Shown here in pieces: positions 25,318 to 31,284 of a DNA stretch of 35,963 nt. Every line of letters begins with the position of its first letter. Position 1 is the stretch's first letter. The position numbers were made by a program, and so were the translations under genes. Source of the DNA: a bacterium (GTDB lineage: Bacteria > Sumerlaeota > Sumerlaeia > MVZB01); contig JAJFUE010000127.1 in assembly GCA_021372575.1 (NCBI GenBank), positions 1 through 35,963 on the forward strand. The letters are read 5' to 3'. The notes beneath the pieces were generated by a model. That model was given only the letters and a program-made list of their open reading frames with translations, was not told where the DNA came from and ran no database searches.

Positions 25318-28300
25318 CTAACGCCCGATCGTGGCCGTTCCGCCGTGCGATTCGATGCGCGCGGGTTTGGTGATGCGGATCGGGGCGGCGGTGGCGCCGC
25401 TGAAGATGCGCACCGTGCCGCCCGAGTTCACCGCGTCGATCCCTTCCGTGAGCGTGTTGAACGGGAATATTTCGGTGCCCAGTTCCGTTCCGGTATAGTC
25501 GAACTTGACCCAGATCAGGTTCGCGTCGATCGGATCGATCCGTCCCATGACCGTGAAGTGATACGGTGTTCTCGGGATATCGTTGCTCGTGAACTGGATC
25601 GTGCCGGTGAACGTCCCGGCGGTTCCCGTCGGCAGCGAGACGGTGAACGTGTCATAACCGCCCGCGGGTATCGATGCCGAAAGCCCCTCGGTGATGACGA
25701 ACGGCGAACTGATCGTCAGGCCGCTCGTGTTGAGCGCGACCACGCCGCTGTTGTAGAGCGTGAACGTTTTGGTCAGGGCGGGCCCGCCGCGGACGATGCT
25801 CCCCATGTCGACCGGCCCGCTTCCGATCGATACCGATGCCATTCCATCCATCAGCATCGACTCCGGATACGGGCCGCCATATTTCGTTTCAACATAGAAG
25901 ACGTTCGAGCCAAGCGGCGTATAAGGAACGACCGACCCGTCGGTCAGCATGATCAGGATCCGGTAATAATAGACCGATATCGGCGCCAGTCCGCTGTCGA
26001 TCATTTCCGTGAATCCGCCCGTGCGCAGAATCGGCTCCGTGTTGATCGGCGCGTAGGAATTGGGCGCCTCGGCCGTGCTGCGCTGGATCATGAATCCGCG
26101 GGCGCCGGTCGGGATGCCGTCCGTCGTGCTCCATCCGACCTTGACGCACGTCGAGCCGATGATCGTGGCGATGCCGTTGTTCGCGCCCATGTCATCGGTG
26201 ATGGCCAGCGTATAGGTGGTGTTCTCGCCGTGAAGACCGGCCGAGCGTGGGCTTTGCGTCACGCGAACGAGCATCGTCCCCGTCGTCTCGCCCGACCACC
26301 ACGAGATCAATTCATCGGGCCCGCCGGGGCCGTTGTCGTCGCGCGTGATGATCGGGGCGCTCAGGTCCGTGCCGCGATAGACCTCAATTTTTGCATCGCA
26401 ATGACTGGCCTGGCCGGTGATGTTGATTGAATAACAGTGATTCGCGTTCACGATCAGCTTGCACCAGTCTTCGTCGCCGGTTTTCCAGAAATTGTGAACC
26501 TGGCCGGTGTAGTTGAGGTTGTAATAATTGAGCGTGCCCGGCGTGTCGTCGCTGTAGTAGCGATCGTAATCGTCTTCCTCGGGCGGCATCTCCAGGGTCT
26601 GGTACGGCTCGGAGAGCTGCCCTTCGTTGTCGCGAACGTAATAGATCACCGTGTTCACACCGGAGGTTTCGAAATTGGAATAGGCCGCCTCCCAGCGGCT
26701 CGTCGCCGCGTTATAGGCGAGGTTCACCTTTTCGGTGCGATCCTCGATCGGGGTCGCGCCGGGGCGGATCACATAGGCAAAAACCTCGTTGATGCCGGCC
26801 GCGGCCTGAACGCCGCTTGCCCAGAGCAGCCCCTGCCCCGATGGCACATAAGTGAAGACCGCGAAGTCCCCGATGGCGGGCAGGTCGGCGCCGGTAATGA
26901 ACGCCGCGCCAAGATACGTCGTTGCCGCCAGCGCTCCGTCGCGCCAGTCGGAAACGCCCGATCCGTCGTCGTCCATCTGCGCGTTTTGCGTTTCGGCGGA
27001 GATGGTGCGCGTGGCGTTGCGCGCCCCGAAGAACGCGTCGCGCAAATTAATGCCGTTGAATATCCTGTTGAAGAAGTATTGCGAGAACGAGAGCATCCCG
27101 CCCTCCTCGCACCACGAGGACTCGAGGGCGCCGCACGACGCGATCGTGATGCGTGGCTTGCCGGCCGGCGGTGTCAGCGCGGCCAGCCATGCCCCCGACC
27201 GGTTGAATTCCAGGATCACGGTGACCATCGTCGATCCGCCGTTCTGAAGCGTATCGATCCAGCCCTTGAGGTCCGCCGGCAACACGTCGTCGCCGTCGAT
27301 CCCGTCGCCGTCGATGTCGAAGTGCCCGGCGACTTCGCCGCCGACCAGATAGACCGTCAGCTTGCTTGCCCCCGCGGCCGCCGCGATCGCCGATTGCAGG
27401 TTGGACCGGGTCGGCGCTTGATCGACGCCCGCATCGGTCCCGCTGCTCAAGTATGTGACGCGCTCCGCCGTGAACCAGCGCGCGAGCGCCGTCTGATAGG
27501 CCTCGTTCGCGAGGTAATTGCTGTTGGCCCACGGCGAGTTCGAGTCGTAGGCGCCGTCGCCGCACACGATGATCAGGCGCTCGTCCGAGGCGGTCTGGTT
27601 GACATACGTCTGCTTGGGGTAGGACACGCCGCCCCAGATGTCCTCGGCATACAGGTTCACGGCGTAGGTGCCGAGCTGATTGAAATCGCTCGATGTCGCC
27701 TCATAGCGCCCCAACGGCGCGTTATACGCCAGGTTCAGCACGGTCAGATTCGTGACCGGCTGCGAGGGATCAAGCTGCGAGGCCGGGATCATCCCCGGTT
27801 CCGAAACCGTCGCCCACACCTTCTTGATCGGGTAGGCCGAGGAAATATTGCTGGCCCAGATCGTCACCGGCGAATTCGCTGCGGTCAGGAATTGGTTCGG
27901 CGAATTGTTGCCGATTTGCGGCCGGTCCGCGCCGGCGATAAACGTCGCGCCGACATGCGTGCGCCTGGCGACCGCCCCGTCAAAGTCTTTGTCATAAACG
28001 CCGTCGCCGTCGTCGTCCATGCCCGGCTGCTGGTAGCGGTCCATCGCGCCGGACGCCAGCTTGAACGCGTCTTCCAGGTTCATGCCCGAATAGACCGCGG
28101 TCATCATGCTGTTGGTGAACGAGATCAGCCCGCCGGCCGAGAAACATGCAGCCTGCGTGGGCCGCGTCGAGGTGATCACGATGCGGGCCTTGCCGGCGGG
28201 CGCGCCGCTGACCGTTTGCAGGAACGACCCCGCGCGGCAGCAATCAACAACGAGCGTGACCGTGGTGACGTCGTGGTTGGCTTGCAGGTCGTCGAGGAAT

Positions 28301-30720
28301 GCGTCCAGCTGCGAGGCGTAAAGCACTTCGCTTTCGTTGCAGCGGACAAAGCCGTTCGTGCCGTCGGCCGCGGCATCGCCGTGATCGATCAGATACACGA
28401 ACAGGTTGGGGGAGCCCGCGGCGAACCCGTTCATTGCGTCCGTGAAATTCGCCAGTGTCGAGGCGGCGGCGATGTCGTTGCCCGCGTTGCCGTCGCCATC
28501 GACGTCCTGCGCGGGAACGCAATTCAGGTAATGAACGTTTTGCTTCGAGAACCCGCGGTGCAGCAGCGCGCGGTAAATGAAATGCGCGAGGTTGTTGGTG
28601 CTGGGCCACAGGCCGTCGTTGGCCTGCCGCCCGGCCATGATCACCGCCTTGCCGGACGCTGAAAGCTGCGCAGTACTGACGACATTGACATACACCCGGC
28701 CGACGGTGGCGCTCGTATCCACCGCCTCGATGACATCGATGACGCCGGCCTGCGCCCCCGCCGTGTAATTCGCGCCCGCGCCGGCTTGATCGATCGTTGC
28801 GCCGCTGCGGTTGTGAACGAAGCGCCACGTCACCTCGCCGGTCGTGTCGGTCGTGGTCAGCGCATGCGAGCTGCCCGGCGTCAGCGTGACCGATCGCGGG
28901 CTGACCGGGATCGTCTTCGCCATGTTGACATAGCATCGGATGCCGCCGGAGTAGCCGCCAATCAGCAGGTCGTCGTTGCCGTCGCCGTTGAGGTCGCCGG
29001 CGACCGGGAAGTCGATTCCGTCGAAATTGTAGTTCGGGATCATGCTCGCGGTGCGGAACGTGAACTGATACGACTGCGCCGTGCCGGTGTTTTCGAAGTA
29101 ATTGATCTGGCTGGCGATGTCGCTGAGTTTGAAATAGGCCGCGCCGAGAATCAGGTCCAGGTCCCCGTCATGATCGACATCGGAGAAGGTTGGCCCCGCG
29201 GACTGGGCCCCGCCAACCGTCGGCGGCACGATCAAATTGTGGTTGATCAGCTCGACCGGAGCCGTCACGCTGGTCCCATCGATATTCTGGTAATACCAGA
29301 CTCGCGGGAGTTCGTCGGTCCATCCCGAAAACGGCGATTGGCTCATGACCAAGTCCGGGCGCCCGTCGCCGTTCAAATCCGGGAAGCTGAGCTGGCGGAG
29401 TAAATCGTCGCCACCCTGAATGCCCATGAATTGGGTGGTCACCAGGGTCCATTGCGGATTCTGCGGCGTGCCTTCGTTCTTGAACTCGGCGATCCCGCCG
29501 GTGCAGGCGGTCACGAACAGCTCTTGGTTGCCGTCGCCGTCGAAATCGGCCACCGCCGGGTGGAGCCAGCCGCGCGACCCGATCGTCTGCTCGTTGATGC
29601 CGCCGTATTGCGACGTGACGAACCGCCAGTTGGGGCTGAGCGGGTTGCCGATGTTTTCAAAGTAATAGAGCGATCCGCCCGTGTGCGTCCAAACGTCCCC
29701 GCCACCGACGAGCAGGTCCAGGTCCCCGTCGCCGTCCATGTCGGCCAGTTCGGGTTTCGAGACGTCGAACACGTCGAGCGTGAACGGCCGGTTGCGCTGC
29801 TCGAACAGCGGCGTGGTCGGCGTGCCGATATTCTCGAACAGTTCGGTTTTGCCCGAGTAGGTGCTGGCGAGGAATTCAAAATCGCGGTCGCCGTCGAGAT
29901 CGACCACCGCCATTGACCAGAACGAACTCTTCGTTGCGTTTGCAGGCAGAATCGAGTCGTCTTGAACGAACGAGGGAGACGAGGCCGTGCCGTTGTTGCG
30001 ATAAAAGCGATAACTCGAATCGAAATATCCATTATCGACCCAGAATCCAACAAACAGATCGTAATCGCCGTCTCCATCAACGTCACACAACCTCGGATAC
30101 GGCGCCCGTTCGTTTGAGACTTTCAACCGGGCAGTGGGACTAACGGGGATGCTCGACTCGTCGCCAAATTGCGGGTTGGTCTTCGTGCCGGTATTGGGAT
30201 AAAAATGCAAACCGGCATCATCGCCGGTTGCCAGGTCCAGCAGCCCGTCACCGTTGAAATCAACGAGTTCGGGATGAATGCCGGGAACACTGACAGACGA
30301 TGTCCAGACGGGATTGGCCGGCGTTCCGGTATTGAAATAGATCCGTGAGCCTGTTGCCCTCCCGACAACCATGTCGAGGTCGCCGTCGCCGTCGAGGTCG
30401 CCCAGTGTCGGCGACAGATAATTATCCACGCCGCTGTCGCCAAGGACGTTCTGGCTGACGACCGTGAACTCGGCCGAACGGGCCGACCCGTCGTTGCGGA
30501 AATACGCCATCTGGCGGCGGTCGCCGATGAAGCAGTCCGGATCGCCGTCGTTATCGACGTCGCCGAAACAGATCGAGACCATCAGGCCGCCGCGCCAGAA
30601 CAGCGGCGCGCGCTGCTGGTCGAGGATGGCGTTGGTTTCCTCGGCCCAGGTGATATCAGCCCCGCGGCCCAGGCTGCAGATCACGAAGAACAGCACGGCG
30701 AGCAGCATCAGTTTGCGCAT
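25318..30720 (-). CDS. Giant secreted FG-GAP protein with two caspase-fold (C13-like) domains
   Basis: The ATG at 30720 has AAGGAAG upstream and is followed by a signal peptide (MRKLMLLAVLFFVICSLGRG), giving 1800 residues. Residues about 25-630 hold ten DxDxDG-type calcium loops (e.g. DLDGDGDLDMVVG) of FG-GAP/VCBS beta-propeller repeats. About 690-927 is a caspase-fold peptidase with YLIDHGD (His780) and VVDCCRAGSF (Cys828). Ig-like sequence follows, then a second such domain (about 1047-1277) in which YLVGGEV and ILEFNRSGAW replace the dyad with Gly1128 and Asn1173. Next come another Ig-like stretch, a PPC domain (about 1395-1507), an Fn3-like domain (1514-1600), a choice-of-anchor-type Ig domain (1625-1727) and a short terminal tail. 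It is probably an exported adhesin-like peptidase. Monocistronic; the substrate is unknown. Confidence 0.88.
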   Translation of the reverse strand: MRKLMLLAVLFFVICSLGRGADITWAEETNAILDQQRAPLFWRGGLMVSICFGDVDNDGDPDCFIGDRRQMAYFRNDGSARSAEFTVVSQNVLGDSGVDNYLSPTLGDLDGDGDLDMVVGRATGSRIYFNTGTPANPVWTSSVSVPGIHPELVDFNGDGLLDLATGDDAGLHFYPNTGTKTNPQFGDESSIPVSPTARLKVSNERAPYPRLCDVDGDGDYDLFVGFWVDNGYFDSSYRFYRNNGTASSPSFVQDDSILPANATKSSFWSMAVVDLDGDRDFEFLASTYSGKTELFENIGTPTTPLFEQRNRPFTLDVFDVSKPELADMDGDGDLDLLVGGGDVWTHTGGSLYYFENIGNPLSPNWRFVTSQYGGINEQTIGSRGWLHPAVADFDGDGNQELFVTACTGGIAEFKNEGTPQNPQWTLVTTQFMGIQGGDDLLRQLSFPDLNGDGRPDLVMSQSPFSGWTDELPRVWYYQNIDGTSVTAPVELINHNLIVPPTVGGAQSAGPTFSDVDHDGDLDLILGAAYFKLSDIASQINYFENTGTAQSYQFTFRTASMIPNYNFDGIDFPVAGDLNGDGNDDLLIGGYSGGIRCYVNMAKTIPVSPRSVTLTPGSSHALTTTDTTGEVTWRFVHNRSGATIDQAGAGANYTAGAQAGVIDVIEAVDTSATVGRVYVNVVSTAQLSASGKAVIMAGRQANDGLWPSTNNLAHFIYRALLHRGFSKQNVHYLNCVPAQDVDGDGNAGNDIAAASTLANFTDAMNGFAAGSPNLFVYLIDHGDAAADGTNGFVRCNESEVLYASQLDAFLDDLQANHDVTTVTLVVDCCRAGSFLQTVSGAPAGKARIVITSTRPTQAACFSAGGLISFTNSMMTAVYSGMNLEDAFKLASGAMDRYQQPGMDDDGDGVYDKDFDGAVARRTHVGATFIAGADRPQIGNNSPNQFLTAANSPVTIWASNISSAYPIKKVWATVSEPGMIPASQLDPSQPVTNLTVLNLAYNAPLGRYEATSSDFNQLGTYAVNLYAEDIWGGVSYPKQTYVNQTASDERLIIVCGDGAYDSNSPWANSNYLANEAYQTALARWFTAERVTYLSSGTDAGVDQAPTRSNLQSAIAAAAGASKLTVYLVGGEVAGHFDIDGDGIDGDDVLPADLKGWIDTLQNGGSTMVTVILEFNRSGAWLAALTPPAGKPRITIASCGALESSWCEEGGMLSFSQYFFNRIFNGINLRDAFFGARNATRTISAETQNAQMDDDGSGVSDWRDGALAATTYLGAAFITGADLPAIGDFAVFTYVPSGQGLLWASGVQAAAGINEVFAYVIRPGATPIEDRTEKVNLAYNAATSRWEAAYSNFETSGVNTVIYYVRDNEGQLSEPYQTLEMPPEEDDYDRYYSDDTPGTLNYYNLNYTGQVHNFWKTGDEDWCKLIVNANHCYSINITGQASHCDAKIEVYRGTDLSAPIITRDDNGPGGPDELISWWSGETTGTMLVRVTQSPRSAGLHGENTTYTLAITDDMGANNGIATIIGSTCVKVGWSTTDGIPTGARGFMIQRSTAEAPNSYAPINTEPILRTGGFTEMIDSGLAPISVYYYRILIMLTDGSVVPYTPLGSNVFYVETKYGGPYPESMLMDGMASVSIGSGPVDMGSIVRGGPALTKTFTLYNSGVVALNTSGLTISSPFVITEGLSASIPAGGYDTFTVSLPTGTAGTFTGTIQFTSNDIPRTPYHFTVMGRIDPIDANLIWVKFDYTGTELGTEIFPFNTLTEGIDAVNSGGTVRIFSGATAAPIRITKPARIESHGGTATIGR

Positions 30721-31284
30721 CTTGATTCTTCCTTGTGGGTTCCAGATGGAACAAGTTTCCTGCGCCTCATCCATGCAACAGCCGGTTCACGGCGGAGGAA
30801 TTCCCTATCGAATGCTCATATTTTAGACATCTAATTCGGTCGGGGATTATGCGCCCGGCGATGAGTTTTGTCCATTCGGAATATGTTGAAAAAAGAACTT
30901 CATGGCTATTTTCATTAGCCGATCGTGCGATCAAGATAAATGTGCAAATTGCATGCCGAAACAGGTCGGTCGCAGCACGTGAAAACGCCCGAATTCATGA
31001 ATTCAAACAAAATGAACGGTCTATCCGGCGGGTTGCCCTATGATCGATTTCAAAAAGACAATAAAATATTTAATGGGATGATCAATAGCGTGTTTAAAGT
31101 TCAGGATGATTTCGATCAAAGGACATTTTGTCGGCTCATCATGTCCAAATGACCAAATATGGCAAAAATCCGGGCGGCCGGGTTGTGGGTTGATGACCCC
31201 GCCGTGAACAACACGCCGGCTCCACAGCGGCACATGCCGGCCCGATCGGGTCGCCGTTTCCACGTCCCTATCCGGCGATGGGTG
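30721..31284. other. AT-richer intergenic region without a supported gene
   Basis: The 5' leader of the giant protein lies at the left end. Two open frames here (30735-31043 and 30940-31152) have no ribosome-binding site and no recognisable content. I see no repeat or RNA gene. The region probably holds the promoters of the two divergent flanking genes. Confidence 0.5.

Follow-up and report, generated by a model that had tools for sequence, protein, structure and literature searches.

A secreted FG-GAP protein of Sumerlaeota with an intact C13-type peptidase domain followed by a maintained pseudo-peptidase copy

In the window (the whole stretch of 35,963 nucleotides that was analysed), part of a metagenome-assembled genome from an uncultured member of the phylum Sumerlaeota, we detected a gene on the minus strand (25318–30720) for a secreted FG-GAP protein of 1800 amino acids that carries two C13-type, caspase-fold domains in tandem. 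The first is catalytically intact and the second is degenerate at both the His and the Cys position, so that the pair proposed in the initial annotation is borne out by phmmer search, alignment and a table of dyad residues among relatives. Comparison with these relatives indicates that the dead copy arose long ago and has been maintained as a pseudo-peptidase, and that it is not a product of recent decay.

The longest open reading frame (P0001; 25318–30774, 1818 amino acids) extends beyond the ATG at 30720. A Shine-Dalgarno-like AAGGAAG, read directly at 30728–30734, lies 7 bases 5' of this ATG and supports it as the likely start, as had been assumed before. Residue numbers are those of P0001 (the initial annotation used numbers lower by 18), and all features of the window given below lie on the minus strand. 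The N-terminus of P0001 (MRKLMLLAVLFFVICSLG) resembles a signal peptide by eye, as does the stretch that begins at the ATG (MRKLMLLAVLFFVICSLGRGA, 30652–30720). Residues 72–625 approximately (28900–30561) are an FG-GAP repeat region (Pfam PF13517, E = 1.5e-38; PF01839, E = 2.3e-24; end point set by eye), which we infer to be a beta-propeller. Domain 1 (residues 706–954, 27913–28659) was recognized using Pfam, the alignment, the structure model and the dyad table. It is separated by a beta-sandwich (Ig-like) spacer (residues 955–1062, 27589–27912), all-beta in the model, from domain 2 (residues 1063–1301, 26872–27588), which was placed by homology, its own model and fold search, and the dyad table. 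A homologous copy of the spacer follows domain 2 (about residues 1302–1400, 26575–26871) and was recognized by the second-site matches of the spacer query (267–357 and 264–351). The repeated unit is a C13 domain with a beta-sandwich, about 350 amino acids in all, and in relatives it is mostly preceded by an FG-GAP or WD40 propeller. Behind the second beta-sandwich of P0001 are further modules, then a choice-of-anchor-D-like domain (residues 1649–1732, 25579–25830; NCBIfam NF012200, E = 1.1e-9, at 38.8 bits below the curated cut-off of 45) and finally a C-terminal stub of about 70 amino acids (25321–25530) that is common to about 21 proteins of the genome.

Domain 1 contains the catalytic residues His798 (in YLIDHGD, 28381–28383; His780 in the initial annotation) and Cys846 (the second Cys of VVDCCRAGSF, 28237–28239; formerly Cys828), both invariant in first copies. 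They follow the dyad order His-Gly...x-Cys, and the corresponding alignment positions H98, G99 and C146 are invariant in the 19 first or single copies, a conservation in homologues on which the initial claim had been made to depend. Pfam Peptidase_C13 matches domain 1 above its cut-off of 22.8 bits (25.2 bits for the whole protein, 28.5 bits for the domain alone). The same family appears at E < 1 in 15 of 19 relatives, with no other clan CD family among them; Pfam searches gave no C14 match in the domain and no C25 match in P0001. When a profile of the 19 first or single copies was compared with solved structures, GPI-transamidase and legumain were matched with the HG and Cys aligned, the E-values being weak (best 0.0035, PIG-K), and in this search Cys846 aligns with the Cys of PIG-K and of legumain-type enzymes. 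The P0001 sequence alone had no match among PDB sequences. An AF2 model of the tandem (pLDDT 82.5, pTM 0.52) has fold matches to the GPI-transamidase PIG-K (5e-8), MALT1 (Foldseek rank 3) and legumain; with a pTM of 0.52, the relative placement and packing of the two domains are not predicted with confidence. On this modelling, domain 1 has the caspase/haemoglobinase fold of clan CD, and its residues point to a working cysteine peptidase with predicted proteolytic activity. Since the acid two residues before Cys846 is kept (Asp844, 28243–28245, the counterpart of Glu1189 in domain 2), the enzyme probably prefers a basic residue at P1; such a retained acid suggests a basic P1 rather than Asn or Asp. 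The DDDGDG loop (28000–28017) may be a Ca2+ site, judging from its motif.

A single-sequence phmmer search with domain 1 (705–955) as query matches domain 2 (1062–1302) over the full length with an independent E-value of 4.7e-26, and the relation between the two domains is thus far above chance. Domain 2 has Gly1146 at the His position (27337–27339; Gly1128 in the earlier numbering) and Asn1191 at the Cys position (27202–27204; earlier Asn1173), and so lacks the His/Cys dyad of an active clan CD peptidase. Used as a profile query, it gave chance-level matches only and was placed in the clan solely by fold search. When domain 2 was modelled alone with AF2 (pLDDT 85.7, pTM 0.87), its fold matched those of plant asparaginyl endopeptidase (E = 2.7e-8), legumain and caspase-11, so that the dead domain is predicted to have this fold by itself. 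Structure prediction with fold search thus upholds a clan CD assignment for both domains, and a fold unrelated to the clan was not seen.

The final table of tandem proteins, drawn from relatives and named genomes, covers Sumerlaeota and Kiritimatiellota/Verrucomicrobiota. In 23 proteins an intact first copy is followed by a second copy, and none of these 23 second copies has both dyad residues (His kept in 0/23, Cys in 1/23, at locus L145); whether the second site is always degenerate in homologues, a point raised in the initial annotation, is answered in the affirmative. Counted over all proteins, the complete dyad occurs in 23 of 26 first copies and in 28 of 34 single copies, some of the latter being truncated where a contig stops; of the 27 second or later copies, none has it (Fisher p = 4e-15, a descriptive value as the sequences are related and a few entries, such as L058/L059, are near-duplicates). 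The live copy comes first in 23 of 25 two-copy proteins, and no dead copy precedes a live one among the tandem proteins tabulated. The residues replacing His and Cys differ between proteins, which indicates that no other chemistry has been conserved in their place. The idea that domain 2 uses different catalytic residues was therefore rejected, the residues at both sites being unrelated across relatives. Where the first copy is intact, 20 of the 23 pairs have a spacer of 98–110 amino acids (the main group); in the WD40-type group it measures 118–127. A paralogue in the same genome (L021, 5306–9748, plus strand) has the same pair, is 67% identical over the core, and has Cys and Asn at the His and Cys places of its second copy. 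Proteins without any intact copy also occur (L061; L146, with three copies; L150, with partial sites), as do single dead copies (L151, L155, L156 and others); because L061, L146 and L150 carry only dead copies, a dead copy does not always have a live partner to serve in its own chain. The tandem was found in Sumerlaeota, Pontiellaceae/Kiritimatiellae and Verrucomicrobia. It is present in 6 genomes of a 241-genome sample of the Verrucomicrobia phylum, including the already known carriers G061 and G062. The C13 family was found in 12 of 61 genomes searched, all within the class to which the genome of the window belongs.

In a tree of 59 copies, the second copies of the main group cluster together and mirror the first copies, the support for the second-copy clade being modest (SH-aLRT 82). 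For Sumerlaeota (p = 0.009) as well as Verrucomicrobiota (p = 0.0045), the AU test rejects a single clade of first plus second copies; therefore, either the duplication predates the split between these phyla or the unit has moved between them. The WD40-type group (L064, L069 and L070) had an unstable position in a first, smaller tree and may represent a second, independent origin of the tandem. With an enlarged sequence set, one clade of all second copies has an AU p of 0.30, which allows one or two origins. Comparison of the two paralogues of the genome gave a dN/dS of 0.317 in domain 1 and of 0.328 in domain 2. Mean column entropy is 2.07 bits in second copies versus 1.87 bits in first copies. 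The lost His (2.95 bits) and lost Cys (2.70 bits) columns are among the most variable in second copies of those conserved in first copies. As the dead copy appears to have been kept under equal selection since before the versions of the two phyla split, domain 2 probably has a function of its own.

Among positions conserved in at least 85% of first copies, second copies retain LD..Q, the Gly after the Cys motif and Gly897/1241. Two residues ahead of the Cys position, 22/22 second copies have an acid, D or E (Glu1189 in domain 2, 27208–27210); Arg864/1208 is kept in 22/22, and Phe886/1230, the aromatic after Ser885/Ser1229, in 86%. All second copies have the Asp-Asp of the DDxG loop (residues 1268–1269 in the DDDGSG of domain 2, 26956–26973), which first copies conserve less strictly. 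Lost are Asp797 (mostly Gly in second copies), the His and the Cys, and the Gly after the His is kept in only 45%. In clan CD enzymes, the Gly beside the catalytic His is conserved, S1 specificity derives from alpha1, L4 and L5, and a conserved aromatic of L5 contacts the substrate (PMC4357240); F886/F1230 was assigned to L5 by its position in the sequence. Loss of the catalytic centre together with retention of what may be the wall of the pocket would agree with a binding role, but the residues concerned may be structural only.

We regard it as fairly probable that P0001 is an exported legumain-type endopeptidase whose dead twin would act as a non-catalytic docking or stabilising partner. Such a clan CD endopeptidase of C13 type, exported and probably associated with the surface, would cleave by means of the His798/Cys846 thiol dyad of domain 1, and the FG-GAP propeller and the C-terminal modules would place the enzyme on its target or on a surface. 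Domain 2 and its own beta-sandwich would sit at a set distance from domain 1, where domain 2 may bind substrate or prop up the live domain like a second subunit. A more specific reading, to which we give tentative credence, is that of an obligate live/dead legumain-type pair in one exported chain, with fixed order and near-fixed spacing in at least two phyla, the dead domain being a built-in substrate receptor or allosteric subunit; such pairs may have had two origins, one with FG-GAP and one with WD40. A secreted peptidase would fit the proposal, general and not specific to P0001, that Sumerlaeota use protein breakdown as a carbon source, which was based on their peptidase content (PMC8092238).

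Pairs of live and dead clan CD units are already known in other forms (PMC7586951, PMC4626109, PMC6426788), and we found no description of a live/dead C13 tandem in one chain in the openly accessible literature, to which the search was confined. Domain 1 shares with legumain/asparaginyl endopeptidase and PIG-K (MEROPS C13) the fold, the DHG and D/E-x-C motifs and the Peptidase_C13 match. Unlike them, P0001 is bacterial and multidomain, with a propeller (FG-GAP here, WD40 in others) ahead, a beta-sandwich behind the catalytic domain and a dead second copy, and the alpha-helical prodomain of legumain was not seen in its model. The paracaspase-Ig3 part of MALT1 (C14B) likewise has a caspase fold followed by an Ig-like domain, and its S1 pocket carries an acidic residue on L4 (PMC4357240); P0001 differs in having no Pfam C14 match. 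MALT1 is also cytosolic and has a single caspase domain. Gingipain and PorU (C25) are secreted bacterial clan CD peptidases too, and in gingipain a second caspase-like subdomain (A/NSD) lies beside the active one (PMC4626109, PMC4357240); in P0001, however, the dead copy comes after the live one and is a full domain set off by a beta-sandwich, and there is neither a C25 match nor a T9SS tail. Dead clan CD homologues retained for function include c-FLIP(L), the partner of caspase-8, and pseudo-orthocaspases (PMC7586951, PMC6426788), which are separate proteins, whereas the dead copy of P0001 is part of the same chain in fixed order. Separase (C50) has been proposed to contain, next to its active domain, an inactive one of caspase-like type, the existence of which was doubted in a modelling study (PMC4626109); that enzyme is eukaryotic and intracellular, with the dead domain first. 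Pseudo-peptidases that aid a live twin are known mainly from animals (c-FLIP with caspase-8) or as a paired subdomain (gingipain). The bacterial legumain-type enzymes described here, with the dead twin in the same chain and at a nearly constant distance from one phylum to the next, offer a compact system in which the contribution of a dead peptidase can be tested. C13-type peptidases have mostly been studied in eukaryotes, and these proteins show that the family has a secreted and diversified branch in Sumerlaeota and in bacteria of Verrucomicrobiota type.

Domain 2 could instead be a mere spacer or rigid scaffold that has no ligand and makes no contact with the live domain, which we consider unlikely. 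The whole unit of domain and beta-sandwich is repeated, as in other repetitive surface proteins, and AF2 gives no confident packing between the domains; yet the near-equal constraint on both copies and the invariant acid, Arg and Asp-Asp positions of the dead copy exceed the apparent needs of a spacer, and most two-copy proteins have a live first copy. By analogy with GPI transamidase, the initial annotation had also suggested a role in surface display, that is a sortase-like or transpeptidase processing enzyme. PIG-K is the best match in both profile and fold searches, and the C-terminal domain of P0001 is shared with about 20 other proteins of the genome. This stub is, however, nearly private to the genus or family and was not found in C13 proteins of other genomes, although the C13 tandem is spread over phyla, and sequence cannot tell hydrolysis from transfer. 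Tandems of C13 domains are limited to a part of the genomes; C25 peptidases, by contrast, are nearly universal (39 of 41 Sumerlaeota-group genomes searched, G000–G039 being listed, typically with about three each) and would be the better candidates for processing. Such a role for P0001 is very improbable.

The initial annotation had left open a regulatory or substrate-binding pseudo-protease and a domain duplication followed by decay. That the catalytic residues were lost differently in different proteins would agree with a recent duplication and neutral decay of the second copy, but an origin by separate, recent duplication in each of the two main groups is rejected by the AU tests, dN/dS of domain 2 (0.33) equals that of domain 1, and the spacing is fixed. 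This old duplication, equal constraint and fixed spacer disfavour mere decay, to which we give hardly any weight, and leave the retained pseudo-protease. Least probable of all is an intracellular conflict or defence caspase (EACC1-type or WD40-caspase): WD40-C13 members exist and some members have weak NCBIfam caspase_w_EACC1 matches, but these score 21–29 bits against a cut-off of 140, the N-terminus is signal-peptide-like and the FG-GAP and other modules are of extracellular type; PADLOC gave no match for P0001.

The C-terminal stub has the consensus VWVDF..G.E.GTQ..PFNTL.EG...V.SGGT..I..G......RITKP.RIE..GGTATIGR and lies near the end of its carriers, 0–2 residues from the stop in 13 of the 16 checked. 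Besides the copy in the window, it is encoded on contigs C118, C44, C28, C20, C177, C82, C208 and others of the same genome (G000). It had no convincing match in Pfam or NCBIfam and is a candidate for an undescribed C-terminal sorting or anchor domain. Sorting by T9SS was rejected, the Por secretion tail (Por_Secre_tail, PF18962) being found in 0 of 16 genomes tested. The paralogue at L021 lies 120 bp upstream of a gene that by eye is subtilase-like (L021, 9869–15400, plus strand), whose product has FG-GAP-like repeats and the same stub followed by 34 more residues; the two genes are a possible two-peptidase operon.

Another C-terminal motif is W-x-[LMIF]-[FYR]-like (for example GWMLF, NWMLFR and DWTLYE). 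Across 400 kb of one genome, other genes showed no clear enrichment of it under a crude secretion filter. Of 22 complete C13 proteins from Sumerlaeota, about 15 have such an ending (L053, L054, L060, L063–L069, L073, L074, L079, L080 and L084). Finally, a chain of 2437 amino acids (L062, 1905–9215, minus strand) combines FG-GAP repeats and a live C13 domain with a complete C25 (gingipain-family) domain at its end.
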